From: Armatimonadota bacterium
Lineage (GTDB): Bacteria; Armatimonadota; UBA5829; DSUL01
NCBI GenBank assembly: GCA_025998755.1
Contig: AP024674.1
Coordinates: 1,354,162 to 1,418,161, forward strand
Direction of reading: 5' to 3'
Length of the DNA: 64,000 nucleotides
Below, piece after piece: positions 5,164 through 32,314 of the stretch; position 1 is the first letter of the stretch, and each line of letters starts with the position of its first letter. The notes under the pieces are model-generated. The model did no database searches. It was not told the origin of the DNA and saw only the letters and a list, made by a program, of their open reading frames with translations. Made by a program: the position numbers and the translations under genes.

Positions 5164-6552
5164 ATGCTTTTCGCCGGTCCCGGGACACCGGAGACTCAAG
5201 TTGAGAGGCTGGTCGAGACGGCCTCAGGCTCAAACTTCTTCGAACACAACAGGCCCGTGCACGTGGCTCGCGCCCCCGGCAGGCTGGACGTAATGGGCGG
5301 GATTGCGGACTACAGTGGTTCCCTGGTCCTGGAGGCCCCCATCGCGTCCGGCGCCGTCGCGGCAGTCCAGGTGACGGACGAGGGGACCGTGACAGCCAGG
5401 ACCGAAAGCGAGTCCCTGAAAGATCTTCGCAAGGAAGCCTGCTTTCCGGTTCGGGAGATCGTCGCCCGCTCGCCCGAAGACTATCCGCGGATCCGTGAGC
5501 GTTTCCGTGAGGATAGAGAAGCCTCCTGGGCTGCGTATGTGGCCGGATGCCTGAGCGTCCTGACGGGACGTTCACTGGCTGAAACCCCTCCGGGGATCCG
5601 GATTTTGCTCTCGTCGGATGTTCCAGCAGGCGCCGGAGTGGCCAGCTCGGCCGCCATAGAGGTGGCCACCATGACCGCTCTGACGTCAGCGCTCGGGGTC
5701 ACACTGGAAGGGGAGCAACTGGCGGCCCTGTGCCAGGAGGTAGAGAATCACATCGCGGGAGCGCCGTGCGGCATTATGGACCAGATGACCGCCGCTCTGG
5801 GCAAGGAGAACCATCTGCTGAAGCTGCGCTGCGACCCGGCGACGGTGCTGGGTCATGTGCCTGTCCCCGAAGGAGTACGTTTCTTCGGGATCAACTCCGG
5901 AGTCAAGCACTCCGTGGGAGGCGCCCGCTATACGCGGGCGAGGGTGGGAGCGTTCATGGCGGTGGCCATCTTGCGCGAGCACGGGGTAAACTTGCCCGGC
6001 GGATATCTGTGCGGCCTGTCGCGGAGGGACTTCCACGCCGCCCGGTGCTGGCTTCCCCACTCCATTACCGGCGAGGAGTTCCTGAACAGGCACGGGGCCT
6101 ATCCGGACCCGGTGACTTCGCCTGACCCGGAAGAGACCTATTATCCTCGCAGCGCGGCTGAACATGCGGTGAACGAGAACTGCCGGGTCTTCCGCTTCTC
6201 GCAACTTCTGGCCGCATCGGCAAGGGACAGAGGCCACCTGGAAGAGGCAGGCGCTCTGATGTACGCCAGCCACTGGAGCTACGGGCAGCTGGCTCTGCTG
6301 GGTTGCGCGGAGACCGATCTACTGGTTCGCCTGCTGCGCGAGGCGGGCCCGGAGCGCGGTGTGCTGGGAGCCAAGATCACCGGCGGCGGATGCGGGGGCA
6401 CCGTTGCCGTGATGAGCACCCGGAACCCGGAGGATTATCGCACCAGCGTGCTGTTGCCCTACGAAGCCGAGACAGGCATCCGCCCCGAGATCATCCAGGG
6501 CTCCAGCCCGGGAGCCGTGGAGTGGGGAATCCGCGTGTTGAACGGAATATGA
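5164..6552 (+). CDS. GHMP-family sugar kinase, L-arabinokinase/galactokinase-like
   Basis: 462 residues from ATG 5164, preceded by CGGAG at 5-base spacing. The N-terminal motif ARAPGRLDVMGGIADYSGS is the GHMP sugar-kinase signature in the form typical of plant L-arabinokinase C-terminal domains (DVMGGIADYSG) rather than the galactokinase form (GEHTDY). The ATP loop VPAGAGVASSAAIEVA follows. CGIMDQMTAALG supplies the catalytic region, and KITGGGCGGTVAV is motif 3 near the C-terminus. Such kinases phosphorylate the sugar anomeric carbon to give a sugar 1-phosphate. The stop overlaps the next start (ATGA), so a nucleotidyltransferase is translated directly after it. Arabinose or galactose is the likely substrate; the exact sugar is inferred. 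Confidence 0.85.
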   Translation: MLFAGPGTPETQVERLVETASGSNFFEHNRPVHVARAPGRLDVMGGIADYSGSLVLEAPIASGAVAAVQVTDEGTVTARTESESLKDLRKEACFPVREIVARSPEDYPRIRERFREDREASWAAYVAGCLSVLTGRSLAETPPGIRILLSSDVPAGAGVASSAAIEVATMTALTSALGVTLEGEQLAALCQEVENHIAGAPCGIMDQMTAALGKENHLLKLRCDPATVLGHVPVPEGVRFFGINSGVKHSVGGARYTRARVGAFMAVAILREHGVNLPGGYLCGLSRRDFHAARCWLPHSITGEEFLNRHGAYPDPVTSPDPEETYYPRSAAEHAVNENCRVFRFSQLLAASARDRGHLEEAGALMYASHWSYGQLALLGCAETDLLVRLLREAGPERGVLGAKITGGGCGGTVAVMSTRNPEDYRTSVLLPYEAETGIRPEIIQGSSPGAVEWGIRVLNGI

Positions 6553-7496
6553 CAGCAAACAACGTTTTGAGGAAAGCCATCATCCCCGCCGCGGGACGGG
6601 GAACGCGTCAGTTTCCTGCCTCCCGCGCCGTACGAAAAGAGCTGTTTCCGCTGGTGGACAGAGACGGTGTAACGCGCGCCGCAATGCACCTGATCGTGCG
6701 AGAGGCGCTCTCGGCTGGAGTCGAGGAGGTCTGCATCGTGGCCTCCCCCGGTGCGGAGGCGGCCTACCGGGACTACTTCCGCTCGCTGACGCCTGAGGAG
6801 GAGTCGGTCTACGGCCGGAAACCCGCCGCCCTGACCGAAGCGGCGGAGCTGGCCGACCTGGGCAAGCGCATCACTTACCGCATTCAGGAGCAGCAGTTAG
6901 GGCTGGGACACGCCGTCTGGTGCGCCAGAGATTTCGCCGCCGGCGAGCCCGTGCTGGTGCTGCTCGGTGATCACGTATACGTATCGGAAACTGAGGCGTC
7001 GTGCGCGGCACAGCTCGCGGATGCGTGGCGGGAGTGCGCAGCGAGCGTCTCCGCGGTCCATCCGGTGGGGCCGGAGCAGATCCATCTGTACGGGATCGTG
7101 CGTACCGACGGCTCTCCCGGCCCTCGCTGGCGGGTTCTGGAAATCGTGGAGAAGCCGGACCGGCAGACGGCGGAGCGCAGCCTGATATCACGCCCGAGTC
7201 CGGCGCTTCCATATCTCGCGTTTTTCGGGATGCACGTGCTTCAGCAGGACGTCTTCGACGCTCTGAACCATCTGATCGAGCACGATATTCGGGATCACGG
7301 GGAGTATCAGCTCACCACCGCGCAGTCGCTGGCGGCCGGAAGCGGAGACTACTTCGCCGTCGAGGTCGCCGGGCAGAGTTTGGACTTCGGAGTCCCCTCG
7401 GGCCTGGCGTTGACTCAGGCCGTACTGACATCGCTGGGGCCGTTCGCGGAGGTTGCAGTCCGCGCCCGGACCCAGCAGACAGCCTGTCCGGCCTGA
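6549..7496 (+). CDS. Sugar-1-phosphate nucleotidyltransferase, GalU-like (UTP-glucose-1-phosphate uridylyltransferase family)
   Basis: 315 residues. The ATG at 6549 overlaps the kinase stop. The N-terminus KAIIPAAGRGTRQFPASRAV is the nucleotide-binding signature of GalU-type enzymes, followed by KELFPLVDRDG. QEQQLGLGHAVWCARDF and PVLVLLGDHVY match the GalU core, and EIVEKPD and LDFGVPSGLALTQAVL match the sugar-binding and C-terminal parts. GalU makes UDP-glucose from UTP and glucose 1-phosphate. Coupled to a sugar 1-kinase, this copy may instead activate the kinase product (for example to UDP-arabinose or UDP-galactose). That specificity is inferred from gene order. It converges with the next gene, leaving 7 bases between stops. 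Confidence 0.87.
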   Translation: MTANNVLRKAIIPAAGRGTRQFPASRAVRKELFPLVDRDGVTRAAMHLIVREALSAGVEEVCIVASPGAEAAYRDYFRSLTPEEESVYGRKPAALTEAAELADLGKRITYRIQEQQLGLGHAVWCARDFAAGEPVLVLLGDHVYVSETEASCAAQLADAWRECAASVSAVHPVGPEQIHLYGIVRTDGSPGPRWRVLEIVEKPDRQTAERSLISRPSPALPYLAFFGMHVLQQDVFDALNHLIEHDIRDHGEYQLTTAQSLAAGSGDYFAVEVAGQSLDFGVPSGLALTQAVLTSLGPFAEVAVRARTQQTACPA

Positions 7497-9614: not shown

Positions 9615-10445
9615 TCAGCCTTCCTCGCTAACCTGCGGAGGGCCGTCCGCCACCACCACTTCGATGCCCGCATCCTGCAGCATGTGAATATGCTCGGGGC
9701 GGGCTTTCGAGTCCGTAACCAACACGTCAAGCAGCGTGAGCGGACCGACTTTCGCGCTGGCGTACAGGCCGAACTTGGATGAGTCGCACAGACCCACTAC
9801 CCGGCGGCCGTGACTCAGAATGCGCCGGTCCAGCTTGGCAGCCTGCAGGCTGGTGCTGGTGATGCCGTGCTCCGCATCAATGGCGGTCATTCCGTAGAAC
9901 ACCACATCCCAGTAAAGGCTCTCCAGCGGATCCTCCGAGAGGGAGCCATCCGTCTCAAGGGAATCGCGCAGAATCCTGCCTCCCAGCAGGTCCACGGGCA
10001 CGCTCGTGTTCGAGGCGATCAGAACAGCGATCTCCGGTGAGTTGGTGGTGACCTGGAAGCCCATCCCTTCCCGGATGTTCAGCGCTAGCTGGCAGGCGGT
10101 GCTTCCCGAGTTGATGAAAACGCTGCCGGTGTCTGGCAGAAAGCGCGCAGCTGCCTGCCCAATCCAGGATTTCTCCACCAAATGGGAGACGCGCATCTCC
10201 TGATACGGAGGAGCCGGCCGGCCCTGGTCCTTAAGAACGGCTCCGCCATGGGAGCGCTGAAGCTTTCCTTCGCGCTCCAGGGCGTCCAGGTCATTGCGGA
10301 TGGTGTTCTCCGCAACACGCAGCGCGGCCGCCAGTTCCGACACGCTCACCGCCCCGCGCCGGAGCGCAAGGTCATAGATGCGCCTGCGTCTCTCCGCTGC
10401 AATCAGCGCACCTCCCCGCGTTTTTCTTCCTGATGCTGTGCTCAT
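9615..10445 (-). CDS. DeoR-family transcriptional regulator
   Basis: 276 residues. The N-terminal winged helix-turn-helix is clear (RRRIYDLALRRGAVSVSELA and TIRNDLDALEREGKLQRSHG, about residues 20-67). The C-terminal DeoR sensor domain shows FINSGSTACQLA, VTTNSPEIAV and GITSTSLQAAKLDRRIL. Such regulators usually repress sugar-catabolic genes and respond to phosphorylated sugars. It lies just downstream of the GH94-like phosphorylase gene on the same strand with a 57-base gap, so it could control that gene. No operator was identified. GAGGAG stands 11 bases before the ATG. Confidence 0.92.
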   Translation of the reverse strand: MSTASGRKTRGGALIAAERRRRIYDLALRRGAVSVSELAAALRVAENTIRNDLDALEREGKLQRSHGGAVLKDQGRPAPPYQEMRVSHLVEKSWIGQAAARFLPDTGSVFINSGSTACQLALNIREGMGFQVTTNSPEIAVLIASNTSVPVDLLGGRILRDSLETDGSLSEDPLESLYWDVVFYGMTAIDAEHGITSTSLQAAKLDRRILSHGRRVVGLCDSSKFGLYASAKVGPLTLLDVLVTDSKARPEHIHMLQDAGIEVVVADGPPQVSEEG

Positions 10446-10502
10446 TGTCTTTCACGCTCCTCGGGCGCGCGACCGGACGGCGCGCCCCTCCCCAAAAAAC
10501 TG

Positions 10503-13013
10503 TCAGGGCACCGCGGCCTCTATCAGGATCTCCCGGGCCTTCTCAAACGTCACGGCGGGCACCAGGGGAAAGACTTCCTCAGTGACGGGATCCGTCCATT
10601 TCTCAGTCACCATTTCCCCACCAACCAGGATCGCCGGCTGCTCACCGGACCCACAACGACGGACACGCAGTTCCGCTTTGCAGCCAAGATATTGGAAGCG
10701 CGCAGTCATCCTTTGCCAGGAGGACGGCAAGCAGGGGACAATGGAACAGCCTTCCGGGCAGGGCCGTATGCCAAGCAGCCCGGAGTAAACATTGCGAAGC
10801 GCTGTGCTGATGCTGCCTGAAAGGAACGCCGCTCCTCCCCTGCCCTCCAACCCAGGCGCATCCATCCAGTGGTTCACAACCGCGTAGGGAGCCGTCTTGC
10901 TCCTCCTGACAGGATGGCAGTCCTGATCATAGGGCAGCATATATCTCAGGATCTCATACAGCAAATCCGCTTCGCCTGCGACGGCCGCCGCACGGCCCAA
11001 GAACCCGTGGCAGCCGTGATTATAGACCGTCCCGTTCTCGCCCAGACCAGGGGCAAGATCCCCCGCGCCAATACGCCCAAGCCCCGCGATCGGAGGGTAG
11101 CCGATGGGAGGGTGAAACAACGGAAAGCCATCCGGACCCTTCAATGACCGGATAACCGAGAGCACCCGTTCCGCCTCGCGCCCTTTGAGCAAGCCGCAAA
11201 TGATGCCAAAGCTGTTCACCGGAACGTTGACCCGCCTGGCTCCGTCCGGGTCCTGCGGAGAGAATACCCACTCGCCCCGGTCCGTGAAGACGCCGTTCAG
11301 GTACCCCTCTTCATTCAGGGCGTGAGTCCTGAGCGCTTCTTCGAGAATGCGTGCCGCCTTCCTTGCATCCTCCGCATCCTCCGCGTTGATGGCCCCGGAT
11401 TGCAATACTTTGGGAGCCAGACGCGGGAGCCGATCGAGCAGGTCGGCCCACTGCCGGAGCATGAGGACCACCTGGCAGGTGACCATAACGCTCTCACCCC
11501 GTCCCTCCAGCCCGGCCCGGTTCACGGAATCGTTCCAGTCGCCCTCGCGGATCAGACACAGCCCGTGCTCCCCCAGGTTCTCAGCGGCCGTGTAGTACGC
11601 CACGGTTCTACGGACGTGCTCCAGGAGCGGGGCGGGGCAAGCATCGTCCAGCCATGGAGGCTCCTCCTGCAAAATGGCGAAGTCGCGCGTGCAGCAGAGG
11701 TAATCGTAAAGAAGCTCCCAGACCCACACCCCGCCATCCACATACTGTCTGAGATCGTGCCGGGATGCGTCCCCGCCGACGGCATACTGCCTCGGAAACC
11801 AGCCATCATTTCGCTGCACACGGAAAAGTTCCAGAATGCGGTGGCGGCTCAACGAGGGATCCAGAGGGATGAGCGCGGCCGTGTCCTGAGCGCAGTCCCG
11901 GACGCCTCGCAACCCCGTGGGCCATCCGCGATCCAGCAGAATGACCCATTTCAGCTGCAGCGGAAGGAATTCATTGACGTAGCGGTTCAGACACTCGTCC
12001 GGCGTGGTGATGGAACGCTTCTCTGACAGAACCGTAAGCGCGCTGCAGTGTGCCGATCGGGCATCCCGGATGGCGCTGGGCTCCAGCAGACGAACGGCGG
12101 TATCCAGCGCTTGATGATCCGGCTGTCTGTTTCCTGTGCCCAGGATCACCATTCTGAAGGACGTCTTGCGGCCGCTGTCCAGCTTCACCCGCTTCGACAA
12201 AGCGATGCCCCCCTGACACCCGTTTATGGAGTTCGAAGGGTCGTAGTGTCCAAACGGGAAGCTCTTGGAGCAATCCACATCCGGAGGCACTGGCGAGGTA
12301 AGGGCGGCGGGCATTTCGAAGGTCCCGGTGCCGATGAAGCGGCTGTAGTTCAGCCAGACGGCTTCCGGCAGGTCAAGATCTGTCAGGACCAGGGCGTAAT
12401 GGCGCTGGGTGGGGATGCCGCCCGGGCTGCGAAGCTCCAGATCGAACGTCTGGGCGGCCTCATTGGAATAACCGATGCGCTGATAGAGCGCGGGAACGTC
12501 CCACGGGGCCAGACTGAACGCAGCGAAATGAGGCCGGAGGGCCGGAAGCAGAAGGAATTCCACAGCGCTGCCGGAGACGTTCTCCACCTCCACGCTCATC
12601 AGCAAGGCGGGCATTCCGGGATGGACACAGAGCTCCGTCCGGCACACGAGCCCCGAGTCCCGCACAGTGTAGAGAGCCGCGTCGGGTGAGTAGACCGCCT
12701 CGAACGACTCCGGCTCCCTGCCGGACGACGGCCCTGGAGCCCAGAAGTTGGGGAACGCGCTCCAGTCACGGGGGCGGATCCACACCACCAGACTGGAATA
12801 AGGCTGGTGGGACTCCCGTTTGAAGAGCACGGTACCGGCCGGGGGATCCAGCTGCAGATAGTCCGGTCCGCGCTGATCCAGCCGCAGGAGTATCTTCTCC
12901 GTGCACAGGATCCACGGCCAGGGCTCCTCAAGATGGAAACGCCGGACCGCAAAGCAGGCTTCCCCGGGCAGGAATGCCCCGGCCCCTTCCAGCTGTATAT
13001 CTTCCAGACGCAA
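10503..13013 (-). CDS. GH94-like glycoside phosphorylase / glycosyl hydrolase
   Basis: 836 residues from TTG 13013, chosen because GGGAG lies 8 bases upstream. The open frame continues to 13205 but would run into the divergent gene. The N-terminal half is beta-sandwich-like. The catalytic (alpha/alpha)6 part carries [27 protein letters not shown] and [13 protein letters not shown] (candidate general acid Asp), then [14 protein letters not shown], all resembling GH94 cellobiose/chitobiose phosphorylases. These enzymes split beta-glycosides with phosphate to give a sugar 1-phosphate. There is no signal peptide, which fits cytoplasmic phosphorolysis. The exact glycoside is unknown. The DeoR gene downstream suggests substrate-controlled expression. 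Confidence 0.8.
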
Positions 13014-13186
13014 GACGAATTCTCCCGACGGGATGCTTCCCCGGCCCTGATCCTGAAACCTTCCCGCCCCCGTGTTTCCCTCACTACAGGCAGACGCGGC
13101 AAGACTGTGGCGATCAGCGGAACACGCCGCTAAACTTGCAGACGGCGCGCCCCGGCGCACGGAGCCGGAGCGTGCGGAGGACGCCT

Positions 13187-14251
13187 GTGAGAAGAAAGAT
13201 AGCACCGGCCGCGCTGGCGGCCTTATTGACGTTTGCCGCTGTCTGCTGCAACGCCGCCCCCGATCTGCAGCAGACCATTACCAGGATCGCCTTCGGGTCT
13301 TGCGCCCGTCAGGACCGGCCGCAGCCAGTGTGGGACGCCATCAATGAGTTCCGGCCACAGCTCTTCCTGTTCATCGGAGACAACATCTACGCCGACACCG
13401 AAGACATGAGCGTGATGCGGGCCAAATACGAGACCCTGGGAGCCATCCCGGGCTTCCGGCGGTTGCGTGAGTCCTGCACGCTGATGGCGGTCTGGGACGA
13501 CCACGACTACGGCGCCAACGACGCCGGAGCCGAGTATCCGAAGAAGGTGGAGTCCCAGCAGGAATTTCGCCGGTTTTTCGGGCCGCCGTTTGATCCTTCA
13601 CGCGAGGGAAAACCCGGCGTCTATGACGCCGCCATCTTCGGCCCAGAGGGACGAAGGGTACAGGTGATCCTGCCGGATACGCGCTACTTCCGGAGCCCCC
13701 TGTTCCGCAAACCGAAGTCGGACACCAGCCCAGGGCCGTATGGTCCAAACCTCGACCCTTCAGCCACGCTGCTGGGCGAGGAACAGTGGCAGTGGCTGGA
13801 GGAGCAGTTGAGGAAGCCCGCCGAGATCCGGCTCATCGCATCCAGCATCCAGGTGGTGCCGGAGGATCACGGCTGGGAGAAATGGATGAACTTCCCACAC
13901 GAGCGGGACCGGCTGTTAGAGCTCATCCGCAAGACCGGCGCTGCCGGTGTCATCTTCCTGAGCGGCGACCGTCATCTGGCGGAGCTTTCCATGATGGACG
14001 GCGGCGTGGGCTACCCGTTATTCGATCTGACGTCCAGCTCGCTGAACGCATCCTCGCAGCGCTGGCGTCCCCTTGAGGTGAACCGCCACCGCGTGGGCAC
14101 CATGGCCTGGGGCGACAACTTCGGCACTGTATTGATTGACTGGGATCGTGATGACCCGCTCATTACGCTCCAGATCCGCGAGGTGGATGGCGAGGTGGCC
14201 ATCAGCCGCAGGATCCCGTTGAGCGTCCTGAAACCCGGGACCATCAAGTAA
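13187..14251 (+). CDS. PhoD-like alkaline phosphatase family protein, exported
   Basis: 354 residues from GTG 13187, with GGAGG exactly 6 bases upstream; the longer open frame from 12974 is not needed. The N-terminus [20 protein letters not shown] is a signal peptide, possibly lipoprotein-type. Metallophosphoesterase motifs run in order: [36 protein letters not shown], and [10 protein letters not shown] near the C-terminus. PhoD-type enzymes release phosphate from phosphodiesters or monoesters outside the cytoplasm using Ca/Fe. Length and motif order fit the shorter PhoD_2 group. It faces the GH94 gene divergently and converges with the TPR lipoprotein gene. Confidence 0.87.
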
Positions 14252-26282: not shown

Positions 26283-27386
26283 TCAGGAGAGGAAAGCAGC
26301 CAGCTCAGCTGCCACAGAACACGCTTCGGCGTATACCGGGTCGCGGCGCGACACTTCCAGCGCGCCGCACAACAGCTCCGCTTCGGAGAGATCCGGGATT
26401 TGGACGGTGTCCCGCGAGGTCTCCGCGCCGCCTTCCCGGACCGTCAGCGTGGCTTCCACGTGCGACTCCTCGAACTGTACCACGAACACCCATCCGCCAG
26501 CGGTCTCAAACGACACTCGCCGGACTCGCCCGCAGCCGTGCCCTTTCTCAGGAAGGATGACCAGCTCCCTATCTCCGGCTGCCGAGAACGCCAGTCCGGA
26601 GGCTCTAGGCGTCAGATCCCTCCAGTGCAGGCGGGCAGCGATCCAGCCGGCCATCAGCAGAGTGTCCGCAGGCGGCGTGGCTGTAGCGGCGTCATCATAG
26701 GCGATCTCCACCCGGCGTATTTCGGGGAGCTTCTCTCTCCAGCGAGGCGGATCGAACTGTTGGGCGACGGCCTGCCGGCAGCGCGCAAGCTGGAGCCACG
26801 CCAGATCCACCACGACAGGCGAGCCAGCCTCGTGCCATTCCACGATCCTCCTGAGGCAACGGGCCGTTTCCCGCTGGAGCCGGGTATCCACCAGCAGCCG
26901 GTCCGAAACCGAGACGAACCGGCGCAGTTCTTCCGAACAAACATCCACCCCGTCCGGCAGCCAGAGAGCCAAGGGAACGTCGGGCAAAGTGAGCGGCAGA
27001 ACGGCGCCGGCAACCTTTTCGAGAGGAGCTCCCCTGGCATCCACGAAAACCTGCTCACAACATATCTGCTGCCCGGTGCGCCCCATCATCTGACAGGCCA
27101 CAGACACGCGCACGTCCAGCGACGAAGCCGGGTCCGATCCACAGTTCCAGATGAGGATGGAACGGGACGGATGATCGGAGGCCACACCTCCCAGGCACTG
27201 GGCCGTGCGGTTGGCGGTCTGCTCGGAGGAACAGACCCCAATAACGTTAAGCAGCACAACCCGGCTGAGCCGCACCCCTTCCGGCGATTGCTCCGCCGCG
27301 CTGCGCCAGAGGTCGCGCAGAGCAGACTCGACATCCTTCAGGTGGACACCAGCCTCCGAATCGAACAGCGAGCGTCCTTCTTTCAC
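26283..27386 (-). CDS. opcA: OpcA-like glucose-6-phosphate dehydrogenase assembly protein
   Basis: 367 residues from GTG 27386, which overlaps the zwf stop (GTGA) and has GGAGG 5 bases upstream; the ATG at 27446 lies inside zwf and is less likely. OpcA-type stretches include [29 protein letters not shown] and [17 protein letters not shown]. OpcA is needed for the oligomerisation and redox control of G6PDH in cyanobacteria and occurs in actinobacteria and related phyla. It is the last gene of the tkt-tal-zwf-opcA operon, exactly where it is found in those groups. Confidence 0.9.
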
Positions 27387-28918
27387 AACCGCCTCCAGCG
27401 CCGGCCGTCCCGGGCGGGCAGTTCCGCCGCCTCCAGAGGCCCCCATGTGCCTGCCTGGTAGGTGGCAAGCCCTTCACGCCCGCGGGCGGCCCACTCTTCG
27501 AGCACCGGCGTGATAATCTGCCAAGCCAGATCCACTTCGTCATCCCGTGCGAACAGAGACGCCTCGCCACTGGCAGCGTCGAGCAGCAGCCGCTCATATG
27601 CCTCCGGAGAAGGGGCGCCGAAGGAGCTGCCGTAGTCGAAGTCCATCCGCACCGGCTGCAGGCGGAGGGATGGTCCCGGCACCTTGCTGATGATTCGCAG
27701 AGTGATGCCTTCGTCCGGCTGAATGCGGATCACCAGGGTATCCGGCTGCAGAGCGTCCCCCTGCCGGGCCCCGAATAAAACCCCGGGAGCCTGGCGGAAC
27801 TGCAGCGCGATCTCGGTGACCTTCCGGGGCAGCCGCTTTCCCACCCGCATGTAGAAGGGAACGCCCGACCACCGCCAGTTGTCCACCAGAAACCGAAGGG
27901 CGGCAAAAGTCTCGGTCGAAGAATCCGGTGCGACACTGGGTTCCTCCAAATAGCCGGGAGCTTCCTCGTCCAGCAGGAGTCCGCGTGTATACTGACCACG
28001 GACTGCGCTGGTGGCCACATCACTCGGACGCATGGGCCGGATCGCCCTCAGCACTTTGACTTTTTCATCCCGGATGGAAGGCGCTTCCATCGCCACCGGA
28101 GGCTCCATCGCCACCAGCGTCAGGAGCTGAAGGCCGTGGTTCTGCACGACGTCCCGCACGATCCCCGCACGGTCGAAGTATGCGCCGCGCCCCTCCATCC
28201 CCAGGGTCTCGGCGATGGTGATTTGGACATTGTCCACATACCGGCTGTTCCATACAGGCTCAAAGATGCTGTTGGCGAAACGGAACACCAGGATATTCTG
28301 GACCGTCTCCTTGCCCAGGAAGTGGTCTATGCGGTAGACCTGGTCTTCCGCAAACACGCTCCGGATGCGGGCGTTCAGCTCCCGCGCGGAGGCAAGATCT
28401 GTGCCGATGGGCTTTTCTATGATGATGCGCGCCCATCCATTATCCTGCCGCTGCAGGCCGCTCTGCCCCAGCCGCTCGATGATGGGCTCATACTCGGCGG
28501 GGGGTGTGGCCAGATAGAACAGGCGGTTGCCGGGGATGCCTCGCTGCCGGCTGAGCTCCTGTAGACGGCGTGCCAGACGAACATAGCCGTCCGCATCCTC
28601 AAAAGTGCTCTGGATATACTCCAGAAGGCGCGCGAAGGTGTTCCAGGACTCCTCGTCCCGCGCCAGCGCTGGCGCGTGCGCCTGAAGTCCCCGGCGCATC
28701 TCCTCCCGGAACTGCTCATCGCTCCAGGGGCGCCGGGCAAAGCCGACGATGGCGGAACTGGTGGGAATAAGCCCCTGCAGGAACAGGCTGAACAGAGCGG
28801 GCACCAGCTTCCGCCGCGTTAGATCACCTGTGGCGCCAAAGATCACAAAGACGCAGGGATCCGCGGCCCGCTCCTCCGGCAGCCCCTCCCGGAAAGGGTT
28901 GACGCTCAGATCCAGCAT
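27383..28918 (-). CDS. zwf: Glucose-6-phosphate 1-dehydrogenase
   Basis: 511 residues, standard. It oxidises glucose 6-phosphate to 6-phosphogluconolactone with NADP+. The coenzyme motif is [19 protein letters not shown] (about 25-43), IIEKPIG (about 166-172) and the active-site signature [14 protein letters not shown] (196-209) with catalytic His and Lys. It follows tal by 46 bases and overlaps opcA by 4 bases. The downstream enzymes 6-phosphogluconolactonase and Gnd are not in the window. Confidence 0.97.
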
Positions 28919-28964
28919 GGCACTTCGGTGCGGCCCGCCAGCGGCGATGCGGCAGCACCGCCTC

Positions 28965-30230
28965 TCAGAAGATCAACCTTCCGATGCGGTCGTCCAGTTC
29001 GCCCTGATCGGCAGCGAAACTCTGCAGGGCCGCCTGGCTCATCAGATCATCAATCGCCGCAACATCCACCCAACGCGCCAGCTCGGGGATCTTGCCGCCC
29101 TTGCGGATCTCAAGCTGCTCCTCCACCGGCCAATCCCGGAAAAAGTCCGGCACTCCAGATTCCTGCGCCAGATTGATGAGATCGCGTCCGCACGTCAAGG
29201 AACCCGCTGCCGCATCGGCCTTCCGGCAGAACTGATCGAACTCAGGTGTCACCTCCCACAGAGCCAGCAGCTTGGCGGCCAGGCGGGCATCCGCAGGAAG
29301 AGACACGGAGAAATCCGACGATGATCTGCGCCGGATGGCAGAGAGATCCGGGCGGGAATCCAGATACTCTCGGGCCACCTTCGGCGGGATGGTATGCACG
29401 TCAACCCCCGCCAGGGATGTAACCTGATGTGCTGCCCGGAGACTGGCCGCGATCTGACGCGATGGGATGCGGGAATCCGCCTGCCGCAATCGCTCCAGGG
29501 TCTCCTGAGAGGCGAGGGCCACCTTTTCACCGATGCCTGAACCGTCCCCCAGACCGTTCTCCTGCATCAGACTGCCCAGCCGCCCAAGGAAGACGTTCAC
29601 ATAGGCAGGACGCGAGAATACCGCCGCGAAGTGATTCTGGCGCGCGCTGAAGCCGAGAGTATAGTTCACGGGCACTCCGGCTTCGCTCAACGCACGCACG
29701 GCCAGAAAGCCCGCCGGGGTCATCGGCACCTTGATGATGAAACGGTCCGGGCAGATCGCGAAGTAGCGCTTGCCGAACGCGACGGTGGCCTCCCAATCAT
29801 CGGCGATATCGGGATGAAGCTCCACACTGACTTTTGCGCCGAAGCGCTGGACCAGTTCCAGTCCGATCCTGGCGTTCAGAACGAAGGCCACCTCCATGAT
29901 CAGGTCGGCCGGTGACATGTCTGGCCAGGCTTCACGCATCCGCCGCCCCACGGTCTGGATGGTCTCATCCAGCCTGCCCGTCTGAACCACCTGGTTGATG
30001 AGCGTGTTGTTGGTGGTCAGCCCGCAGACTTCGGGGGACCACACACTTTCCGCCGCCGCTCTGTCCCCCGTGTCCAGCCATATCTCGCTTCCGGCGGCCA
30101 CCAGGGCAGCATATTCCGGCCGGCCAGCGGCCTCGAAGCGTCCGGGACCCTCGTATCCGTCCAGGGCGATCTCCGCCGCCGCCTGGACCAGTCGCTCATC
30201 CGAATGCAGCTCAGTGACTGTCTTTGGCAT
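28965..30230 (-). CDS. tal: Transaldolase family protein
   Basis: 421 residues from the second of two adjacent ATGs (30230); AGGAGAGG stands just upstream. Motifs: [18 protein letters not shown] at the substrate region, [12 protein letters not shown], and the Schiff-base lysine in [20 protein letters not shown], followed by [11 protein letters not shown] and [13 protein letters not shown]. At over 400 residues it is longer than E. coli TalB. It transfers dihydroxyacetone units in the non-oxidative pentose phosphate pathway. It sits between tkt and zwf. A strong hairpin occupies the tkt-tal gap. Confidence 0.88.
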
Positions 30231-30249
30231 CATCCCTCTCCTGAACACC

Positions 30250-30275
30250 GGCCCGGCGCCTGAAGGCGCCGGGCC
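30250..30275. other. Perfect 11-bp intercistronic hairpin between tkt and tal
   Basis: GGCCCGGCGCC, a 4-base loop, then GGCGCCGGGCC. It lies in the 68-base gap of the operon and no T-run follows, so it probably affects mRNA stability or processing and adjusts tkt versus tal levels rather than ending transcription. Confidence 0.6.
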
Positions 30276-30298
30276 TGACTCGACACCCTGACCGCCCC

Positions 30299-32314
30299 CT
30301 ACGCCAGGTACTCCCGGATGCGAGCCGCGATCTTGTCCGCTGTGAACCCGAAGTTCTCCTGAAGATCCTTCAGCGGGGCGGAAGCTCCGAACCGGTCCAC
30401 CCCGATGATCAGGCCATCGCGCAGAACGTAGCGCTCCCAGCCGAAGGAGCTCCCTGCCTCGACGGCGATGCGCCGGGTAACCGAGGAGGGCAAAACGCTC
30501 TCCCGGTAGGCTTCATCCTGCTCCTCGAAAAGCTCCCAGCACGGCATGCTGACCAGCCTCAGGCGCCGTCCCTCTGCAGCAAGCAGCCGGACGGCCTCCT
30601 GCGCGGGCTTTACCTCCGTGCCGGTGGCGATGACGATCGCCTCCGGCTGACCGCCCTCAGGGTCCGACACCACATAGGCGCCCTTCAGCAGACCCAGCGC
30701 ATCCTTCGCGGAAGGGCGATCGACAGCCGGCGCCTTCTGGCGGGACAGCGCAAGAGCGGTGGGACGGTCCTTGCTCTGGATGGCCACCGCCCAGGCGACG
30801 GCCGTCTCAGCGGCATCCGCCGGCCGGATGACACGCAGGTTCGGCATGGCCCGCAGGGAGGCCAGATGCTCGATGGGCTGATGCGTCGGCCCGTCCTCGC
30901 CCACGAAGATGCTGTCGTGGGTCCAGATCCAGACCGTCTGCAGGTGCGAGAGCGCAGCCACGCGCACGGAAGGACGCATGTAGTCCGAAAACACCATGAA
31001 CGTTGCGCCGTAGGGAATGAAATAGCCGAAATACGCCATTCCGTTGACGATGGCGCCCATTCCGTGCTCACGCACGCCAAAATGAATGTTGCGTCCCTCA
31101 AAGCTGCCCCGGGCGATGGAGGTGGTATCCTTGAGGAGCGTCTTGGTGGAAGGCTCCAGGTCGGCTGATCCGCCCACAAGAGAGGGCACGAGGCCCGCCG
31201 CCACCTGCATCACCTTGCCGCCGTATCCTCGGGTGGCATCCGCATCGAAGGATTCGGCTGCCTCCAGCAGTTTTTCGGCTAGGTCGGCCGGAGCACGACG
31301 CTCCTTCATGGCATCCAGCAGCTCCGCCTCGGCAGGATACTCCCGGCGGTAGCGCTCCATCATCTCGTGCCATGCGGCATACTCATTCCGTTCCACCTGA
31401 CGCGGACGCTCGCGGAAGTGATCGTAGACGCCACCCGGAACGTGGAAATCGGGCTCCAGCGGCCACCCCAGTGCCTGCTTCATCAGGGCGATCTCCTCCG
31501 CCCCCAGAGGCTCGCCGTGGGCTCCCGCAGTGTTGCGCTTATTGGGAGCGTCTTTCGCGATGATGGTGCGGGCGATGATCAGACTCGGGCGCTGGGTCTC
31601 GGCGATCGCGGCGGCGATGGCCGCCTCCGCCGCTTTGCGGTCGTGGCCGTCAATCTTCTGGACGTGCCAGCCATACCCTTCGAAGCGCTTCTGCACATCG
31701 TCGGAATAGGTTATGCCTGTATCCCCGCCGATGCTGATATGGTTGTCGTCATAGATGTAGACGATGTTGCCCAGCCCCAGATGACCGGCGAAAGAGGCGG
31801 CCTCGTGCGAGATGCCCTCCATCAGGTCGCCGTCGCTGCAGATGGCGAAGACACGGTTGTTGAACAGCTCGTAGCCGGGCCGGTTGAACCGGGCAGCCAG
31901 CATCTTCGAGGCCAGCGCCATTCCCACTCCGTTGGCGAATCCCTGACCCAGCGGTCCGGTGGTGGCCTCCACCCCCGGAGTCAGCCCGTATTCCGGGTGA
32001 CCCGGCGTGCGGCTGCCCCACTGCCGGAAGTTCTTGATGTCCTCCAGCGAGACGTCATAGCCGGTAAGGTGCAGCAGCGAATAGAGCAGCATGCATCCAT
32101 GGCCGGCCGACAGGATGAACCGGTCGCGCCCGGGCCATTGCGGATCCGACGGGACATAGCGCATGAAGCGCGTCCACAGGACGTAGGCATAGTCCATCGC
32201 TCCCGTCGGCAAGCCGGGATGCCCCGACTTGGCCTTCTCCACAGCATCCACGGACAGCGTCTTGATGGTGTCTACGGCAAGCTGTTCGATATCGCAGACA
32301 GTCGTCTCGCTCAC
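30299..32314 (-). CDS. tkt: Transketolase
   Basis: 671 residues. It is thiamine-diphosphate dependent and transfers two-carbon ketol units in the pentose phosphate pathway. Family motifs are [20 protein letters not shown] near the N-terminus, [20 protein letters not shown] (ThDP/Mg site), [18 protein letters not shown] and [20 protein letters not shown]. Length is normal. The start is GTG at 32314, with GGAGGAG 11 bases upstream. It is the first gene of tkt-tal-zwf-opcA, so carbon entering as glucose 6-phosphate or pentose phosphates is handled by one transcript. Confidence 0.96.

Follow-up and report, generated by a model that had tools for sequence, protein, structure and literature searches.

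A galactokinase-like sugar kinase of Armatimonadota and its GalU-like partner: a possible Leloir-type pathway for L-arabinose

The gene pair and its kinase

In the window analysed here, a 64,000-nucleotide stretch of an Armatimonadota genome (G000; single contig, 3.29 Mb), a kinase resembling galactokinase is directly followed by a GalU-like enzyme. The gene K (5164..6552, forward strand; ATG at 5164, TGA at 6550-6552) encodes an AbGHMP-like GHMP sugar-1-kinase of 462 aa with an ARA1-like motif, and U (6549..7496, forward strand; ATG at 6549, stop ending at 7496) encodes a GalU-like sugar-1-phosphate nucleotidyltransferase of 315 aa. The overlap of the two genes claimed by the earlier note was confirmed by reading the sequence, as ATGA at 6549..6552 (forward strand), which is the usual start/stop arrangement for translational coupling. 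Both flanking genes, a histidine kinase gene upstream of K and a URO-D-family protein gene downstream of U, lie on the opposite strand, and K-U is therefore a stand-alone two-gene unit. No phosphatase, epimerase or transporter gene lies beside the pair in the window, nor any arabinose-specific gene beside K. The pair recurs in other genomes, with the same ATGA overlap in G037 (L002) and with spacings of 75 bp in G052 (L012), 35 bp in a Chthonomonadaceae genome (L038), and 279 bp (L058) and 1.9 kb (L072) in two KSB1 genomes. Elsewhere in the window, a GH94-family (cellobiose-phosphorylase-like) protein is encoded at 9615-13205, its gene immediately followed by that of a DeoR-family regulator, and translations read by eye at 26283-32314 (minus strand) suggest a run of OpcA-, glucose-6-phosphate dehydrogenase-, transaldolase- and transketolase-like genes.

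By its fold and catalytic residues, K is a member of the galactokinase-type GHMP sugar-1-kinase superfamily. PF00288, PF10509 and PF08544 all exceed their cut-offs, and the AlphaFold model (pLDDT 93.3) has the galactokinase fold, with a Z of about 44 to human galactokinase. On the galactokinase model TIGR00131, K scores 169.5 bits against a cut-off of 226.65, and it misses the other galactokinase models as well; the ordinary galactokinase of G000 scores 386 on TIGR00131. The closest solved protein is AbGHMP (PDB 9ulx/9uly; E 1.5e-94 over K residues 24-455), with galactokinases far behind at only 3e-25, and K and AbGHMP have the loop DVMGGIADYSGSLVLE in common. By this close relation to 9ulx, K can be assigned to the AbGHMP-like kinase family. 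No paper on AbGHMP was found, and 9ulx was not among the fold-search matches for K.

The sugar-binding loop of K (residues 42-52; 5287..5319, forward strand) reads DVMGGIADYSG in place of the galactokinase form, which is NLIGEHTDYNQ in human GALK1. The loop may resemble that of plant ARA1, a likeness that serves as a lead. Throughout the K family, GG(I/V)ADY or a close variant stands instead of GEHTDY (GGIADY in the window K). Signature columns were read in human GALK1 numbering from a K-family alignment of 82 rows, a few of them partial and the window included: E43 and H44 are absent in every readable row (G and I in the window K), and, G052 aside, each readable row retains R37, D46, D186 and Y236. 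The catalytic-base aspartate D206 of K (5779..5781, forward strand; D186 of human GALK1) is invariant in an alignment of 49 sequences, as are A37, P38, R40, D42, M44, G45, G46, D49, Y50 and G52; since K aligns with its relatives and these residues do not vary, the motif is not a product of chance. In established galactokinase structures, E43 and H44 are placed at the C6 end of the sugar, a part that a pentose does not have. The exceptional K of G052 (L125:9241-10635, minus strand) carries G, G and S in place of R37, D186 and Y236, yet U is still adjacent to it.

Relatives of K occur in 11 other genomes of the window phylum (41-52% identity) and, outside it, at some 70 more loci, spanning about ten phyla. 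The earlier note had held K to be distinct from galactokinase and had proposed a phylogeny as a check. In a quick tree against 15 galactokinase-type kinases, in which some galactokinase rows form long branches, K does not cluster inside them and is separated with 100% SH-aLRT; its distinctness is thus upheld by the missed curated cut-offs, the loss of GEHTDY and the tree, and an ordinary galactokinase is ruled out by the same model scores, signature and tree. Within the K family, one clade (82% SH-aLRT) holds the window K and every K-U pair and consists mainly of Armatimonadota, with two KSB1 and two Planctomycetota sequences. A second clade (94% SH-aLRT) comprises Chloroflexota, Acidobacteriota, Planctomycetota, Gemmatimonadota, most KSB1 and others, and AbGHMP falls there, among Acidobacteriota and KSB1 sequences. 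AbGHMP therefore belongs to the same bacterial kinase family as K, but to the clade of galT2-phosphatase operons rather than to that of the window.

The partner enzyme U

The earlier note had called U both GalU-like and UDP-sugar pyrophosphorylase-like; membership of the plant UDP-sugar pyrophosphorylase family was not borne out. U exceeds a cut-off only for PF00483 (the NTP_transferase/GalU family), and the UDPGP domain PF01704, which was used as the test for the plant-type enzyme, was not found in it. Plant UDP-sugar pyrophosphorylases belong to the PF01704 family, so U can at most be their analogue from a different, bacterial family. The best PDB match is Bacillus YngB (4e-35), and U has the family and the motifs (G-x-G-T-R, GD, VEKP) of the GalU/YngB UTP-glucose-1-phosphate uridylyltransferases. 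It stays far under the cut-off of the GalU model TIGR01099 (149.7 bits against 326.8); a protein exceeding this cut-off occurs in 1/29 genomes searched, which may point to a narrow model in this setting. Unlike canonical GalU, which has another sequence at that position, U carries an FFGMH(V/I)-type stretch.

Relatives of U at E < 1e-60 were found in 16/61 genomes of the window phylum, and the resolution of the U tree is too weak to place the window U. U is present in 10/12 K genomes of this phylum versus 6/49 others (Fisher 5e-6, uncorrected for kinship). The two K genomes that have no U, G031 and G036, carry instead the galT-like partner GalT2 (53-67% identity), and every K genome of the phylum (12/12) thus has a uridylyl-transfer partner. 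Moreover, U adjoins a phosphatase gene in G030, G039, G044 and G057, with an ATGA overlap in G044 and G057, and the gene order at the KSB1 locus L072 is K, phosphatase, SDR, U. From the K-U association, this adjacency and the order in L072, the gene set can be described as K, the phosphatase and either GalT2 or U, with U replacing GalT2 in Armatimonadota and KSB1. In the K-less genomes G057, G044 and G030 (loci L022, L027 and L029), the phosphatase-U pair is kept and followed by a gene starting KPKILLSWSSGKDSAW, which looks ATP-pyrophosphatase-like by eye. In an Armatimonadetes genome, an NTP_transferase resembling mannose-1-phosphate guanylyltransferase/MurU (L036:7397-8248) follows K in place of U.

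Operon context and co-occurring pentose genes

In other bacteria, most K relatives, and likewise most K genes of the second clade, lie in an operon of galT-like, inositol-monophosphatase-like and K genes. The two-gene salvage proposed by the earlier note was accordingly too narrow, as the usual setting is a larger, catabolic-looking operon in which a GalT-like enzyme takes the position of U. Neighbour families were assigned by model (GalT by TIGR00209, over cut-off; galE by TIGR01179; xylA by TIGR02631; xylB by TIGR01312). Across the K loci, galT-like genes occur in 57, phosphatase-like genes in 46, galE in 14, xylA in 12, xylB in 7 and mutarotase in 7. Hydrolases are also found, namely GH127 in 2, GH3 beta-xylosidase in 3 and GH10 xylanase in 3 loci, and a GH51 gene adjoins K in G036; the GH127 and GH51 enzymes near K are arabinofuranosidases. 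A regulator with an AraR_C domain is present at L104 in a Cytophagaceae genome, and monosaccharide ABC and SSS transporters and DeoR regulators likewise lie near K loci. The operon phosphatase is a divergent protein of the inositol-monophosphatase family, with the E...DPIDGT...D pattern kept (by eye); no match to it was found in G000. All K-linked GalTs read (48/48) retain the HPH motif along with the main partners of that motif. The pocket residues of GalT2 were rejected as proof of pentose specificity, since ordinary GalTs, too, can have A314 and a residue other than Q at 323, which leaves P316 as the only uniform one.

If K served to turn arabinose into xylose, it should need xylose isomerase, and this prediction was checked in Chloroflexota (201 genomes; K at E < 1e-50 in 15, xylose isomerase in 43). 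Xylose isomerase is present in all 15 K genomes (15/15) versus 28/186 K-less genomes (Fisher 1e-11, uncorrected for genome relatedness). Counting xylose isomerase of either type, it occurs in 46/54 K genomes versus 8/26 K-less relatives of the window. G000 carries one away from K-U (G000:C1:1522897-1524051; E 2.6e-129, 52% identity), and none was recognisable in the Armatimonadota K genomes G036, G037, G039 and G043. AraA is present in 2/54 K genomes, one of them being G052, the only such genome in the window phylum, where R37, D186 and Y236 of K are replaced. AraA is equally rare in K-less Chloroflexota (14/186; no difference with or without K, Fisher 1.0), which makes its absence weak evidence, and it was dropped as proof of a K route.

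A predicted pentose route and its rivals

Among the pentoses, L-arabinose corresponds to galactose and D-xylose to glucose, which lets the logic of the Leloir pathway carry over. K is very probably an anomeric sugar kinase, and the gene neighbourhoods suggest that L-arabinose is rather likely its main substrate: it would phosphorylate free L-arabinopyranose with ATP at C1, giving arabinose 1-phosphate. U, which on balance appears to act on the product of K, would couple arabinose 1-phosphate to UTP to yield UDP-L-arabinose; in the GalT2 form, UDP-arabinose would instead arise by UDP-sugar exchange. A GalE-type 4-epimerase would convert UDP-arabinose to UDP-xylose, an epimerisation known from bacteria and plants, as cited in PMC5974040. 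The same uridylyl step (U reversed, or GalT2) may then return xylose 1-phosphate. Since phosphoglucomutase would find no C6 hydroxyl on xylopyranose 1-phosphate, a phosphatase is needed, and the inositol-monophosphatase-family enzyme would release D-xylose, to be converted by XylA to xylulose, with XylB next. All these substrates and reactions are predictions from the observed sequence families, operons and co-occurrence. We consider the chances about even that K makes L-arabinose 1-phosphate, that U (or GalT2) makes UDP-L-arabinose, and that the operon elsewhere is a pentose-type Leloir pathway. The full route to xylose is somewhat doubtful even for the galT2-type operons, and it is rather unlikely in the window organism, in which XylA is present but the operon-type phosphatase is missing; possible alternatives for G000 are another phosphatase or a biosynthetic end at a UDP-pentose.

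The galactokinase fold of K, with R37, D46, D186 and Y236 kept, would also suit a second, divergent galactokinase, with U as a UDP-glucose pyrophosphorylase that takes galactose 1-phosphate too, both working in galactose salvage. Operons of galT2, galE and the kinase with SSS transporters and DeoR regulators, as found near K elsewhere, can also be read without strain as galactose operons, which counts against the pentose reading. In addition, the search of G000 for full-length GalU-like proteins yielded just U and its paralogue U2, so one of them may be the ordinary UDP-glucose enzyme. Nevertheless, galactose salvage is an unlikely explanation. A further galactokinase-type gene (E < 1e-39) is carried by 50/54 K genomes, so K is not their sole galactokinase candidate, and in G067, G083, G084 and G100 that other galactokinase adjoins a second galT, which suggests that the K operon there is a second copy of the Leloir set with a different purpose. 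The K family as a whole lacks E43 and H44, P stands at E. coli position Y316 in 48/48 K-linked GalTs read, although ordinary GalTs vary there, and neither the nearby xylose and arabinose genes nor the 15/15 link with xylose isomerase has a reason in galactose metabolism. The ordinary galactokinase of G000 (L113:7004-8176) and two near relatives have GGHTDY rather than GEHTDY, with E43 lost and H44 kept. At a second place in G000, too, a nucleotidyltransferase gene and a kinase gene overlap, by 4 bp (L114:4544-6696; G000:C1:2989543-2991695): an NTP_transferase of 247 aa is followed by a galactokinase-type kinase of 470 aa, which reaches 263.6 bits on TIGR00131 and is over the cut-off.

Just as unlikely as galactose salvage is a purely biosynthetic, plant-like salvage, in which UDP-L-arabinose made from L-arabinose would go into glycans and none of it back to central metabolism. 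K-U standing alone in the window, with no adjacent phosphatase, epimerase or transporter, would fit it, as would an SDR gene of G000, divergent from U2, whose sequence reads as possibly a UDP-xylose synthase. In other phyla, however, xylA/xylB, transporters, hydrolases and regulators accompany the operon, as they would in a catabolic route, and G000 has its xylose isomerase gene elsewhere. It is improbable that K acts on some other sugar resembling galactose, for instance D-fucose or galacturonate, whose UDP form U would make: the altered pocket by itself does not single out a pentose, but pentose genes dominate the recognised K neighbourhoods, and no uronate genes were recognised by eye among the listed neighbours. 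At the U2 locus (L115:5057-10720; G000:C1:3049056-3054719), U2 is directly followed by a protein of 1110 aa with a fucokinase-like kinase part and a UDPGP-type pyrophosphorylase part, possibly a fused sugar kinase/UDP-sugar pyrophosphorylase, and the divergent SDR gene also lies there.

Plant ARA1 has a long extra N-terminal part, and K differs from it as a single 462-aa domain. In plants, L-arabinose is salvaged by the L-arabinokinase ARA1 and UDP-sugar pyrophosphorylase (PMC12281597, PMC3659416), and the chemistry proposed for K-U is alike, from free sugar through sugar 1-phosphate to UDP-sugar. The suggestion of the earlier note that the pair could make a UDP-sugar directly from a free sugar is supported in part: K stands apart from galactokinases, its context elsewhere points to pentoses including L-arabinose, and U is a fitting partner, but U is not of the plant family and the two-gene scheme is too narrow. 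The system resembles the Leloir pathway (GalK, GalT, GalE) in its homologous kinase, GalT-like and GalE-like steps, and differs in its kinase K, which falls outside GalK, in an additional phosphatase, in the link to xylA/xylB and, for Armatimonadota and KSB1, in having U where GalT would be. A zebrafish protein (PMC3938481) likewise combines a GHMP sugar-1-kinase, glucuronokinase, with a putative pyrophosphorylase of the bacterial nucleotidyltransferase type; unlike K-U it is fused and its kinase is of another family, and its pyrophosphorylase activity was not confirmed in that study. The arabinose route in a microbial-mat paper (PMC5507952) is the oxidative one. Among open-access full texts, no paper on a bacterial arabinokinase of the K family or on a pentose Leloir pathway was found; the work behind 9ulx may name an activity.

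Tentatively, and with a little more reserve than for the galT2-type operons, these gene sets may represent a third bacterial route of L-arabinose degradation besides the isomerase and oxidative routes, of Leloir type, in which C4 would be inverted at the UDP level and D-xylose released, spread over about ten phyla in a UTP-dependent form with U and an exchange form with GalT2. This prediction is open to testing in cultured strains of Ktedonobacter, Dictyobacter, Tengunoibacter and Paludisphaera. If true, K could usefully be combined with U or GalT2 to produce UDP-L-arabinose and UDP-xylose, and a function would be found for a kinase family that curated models can only put in the vicinity of galactokinase. 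The origin of plant arabinokinase would then become a question to ask, and many soil and hemicellulose-degrading bacteria with no recognisable L-arabinose isomerase would have an overlooked route for arabinose.
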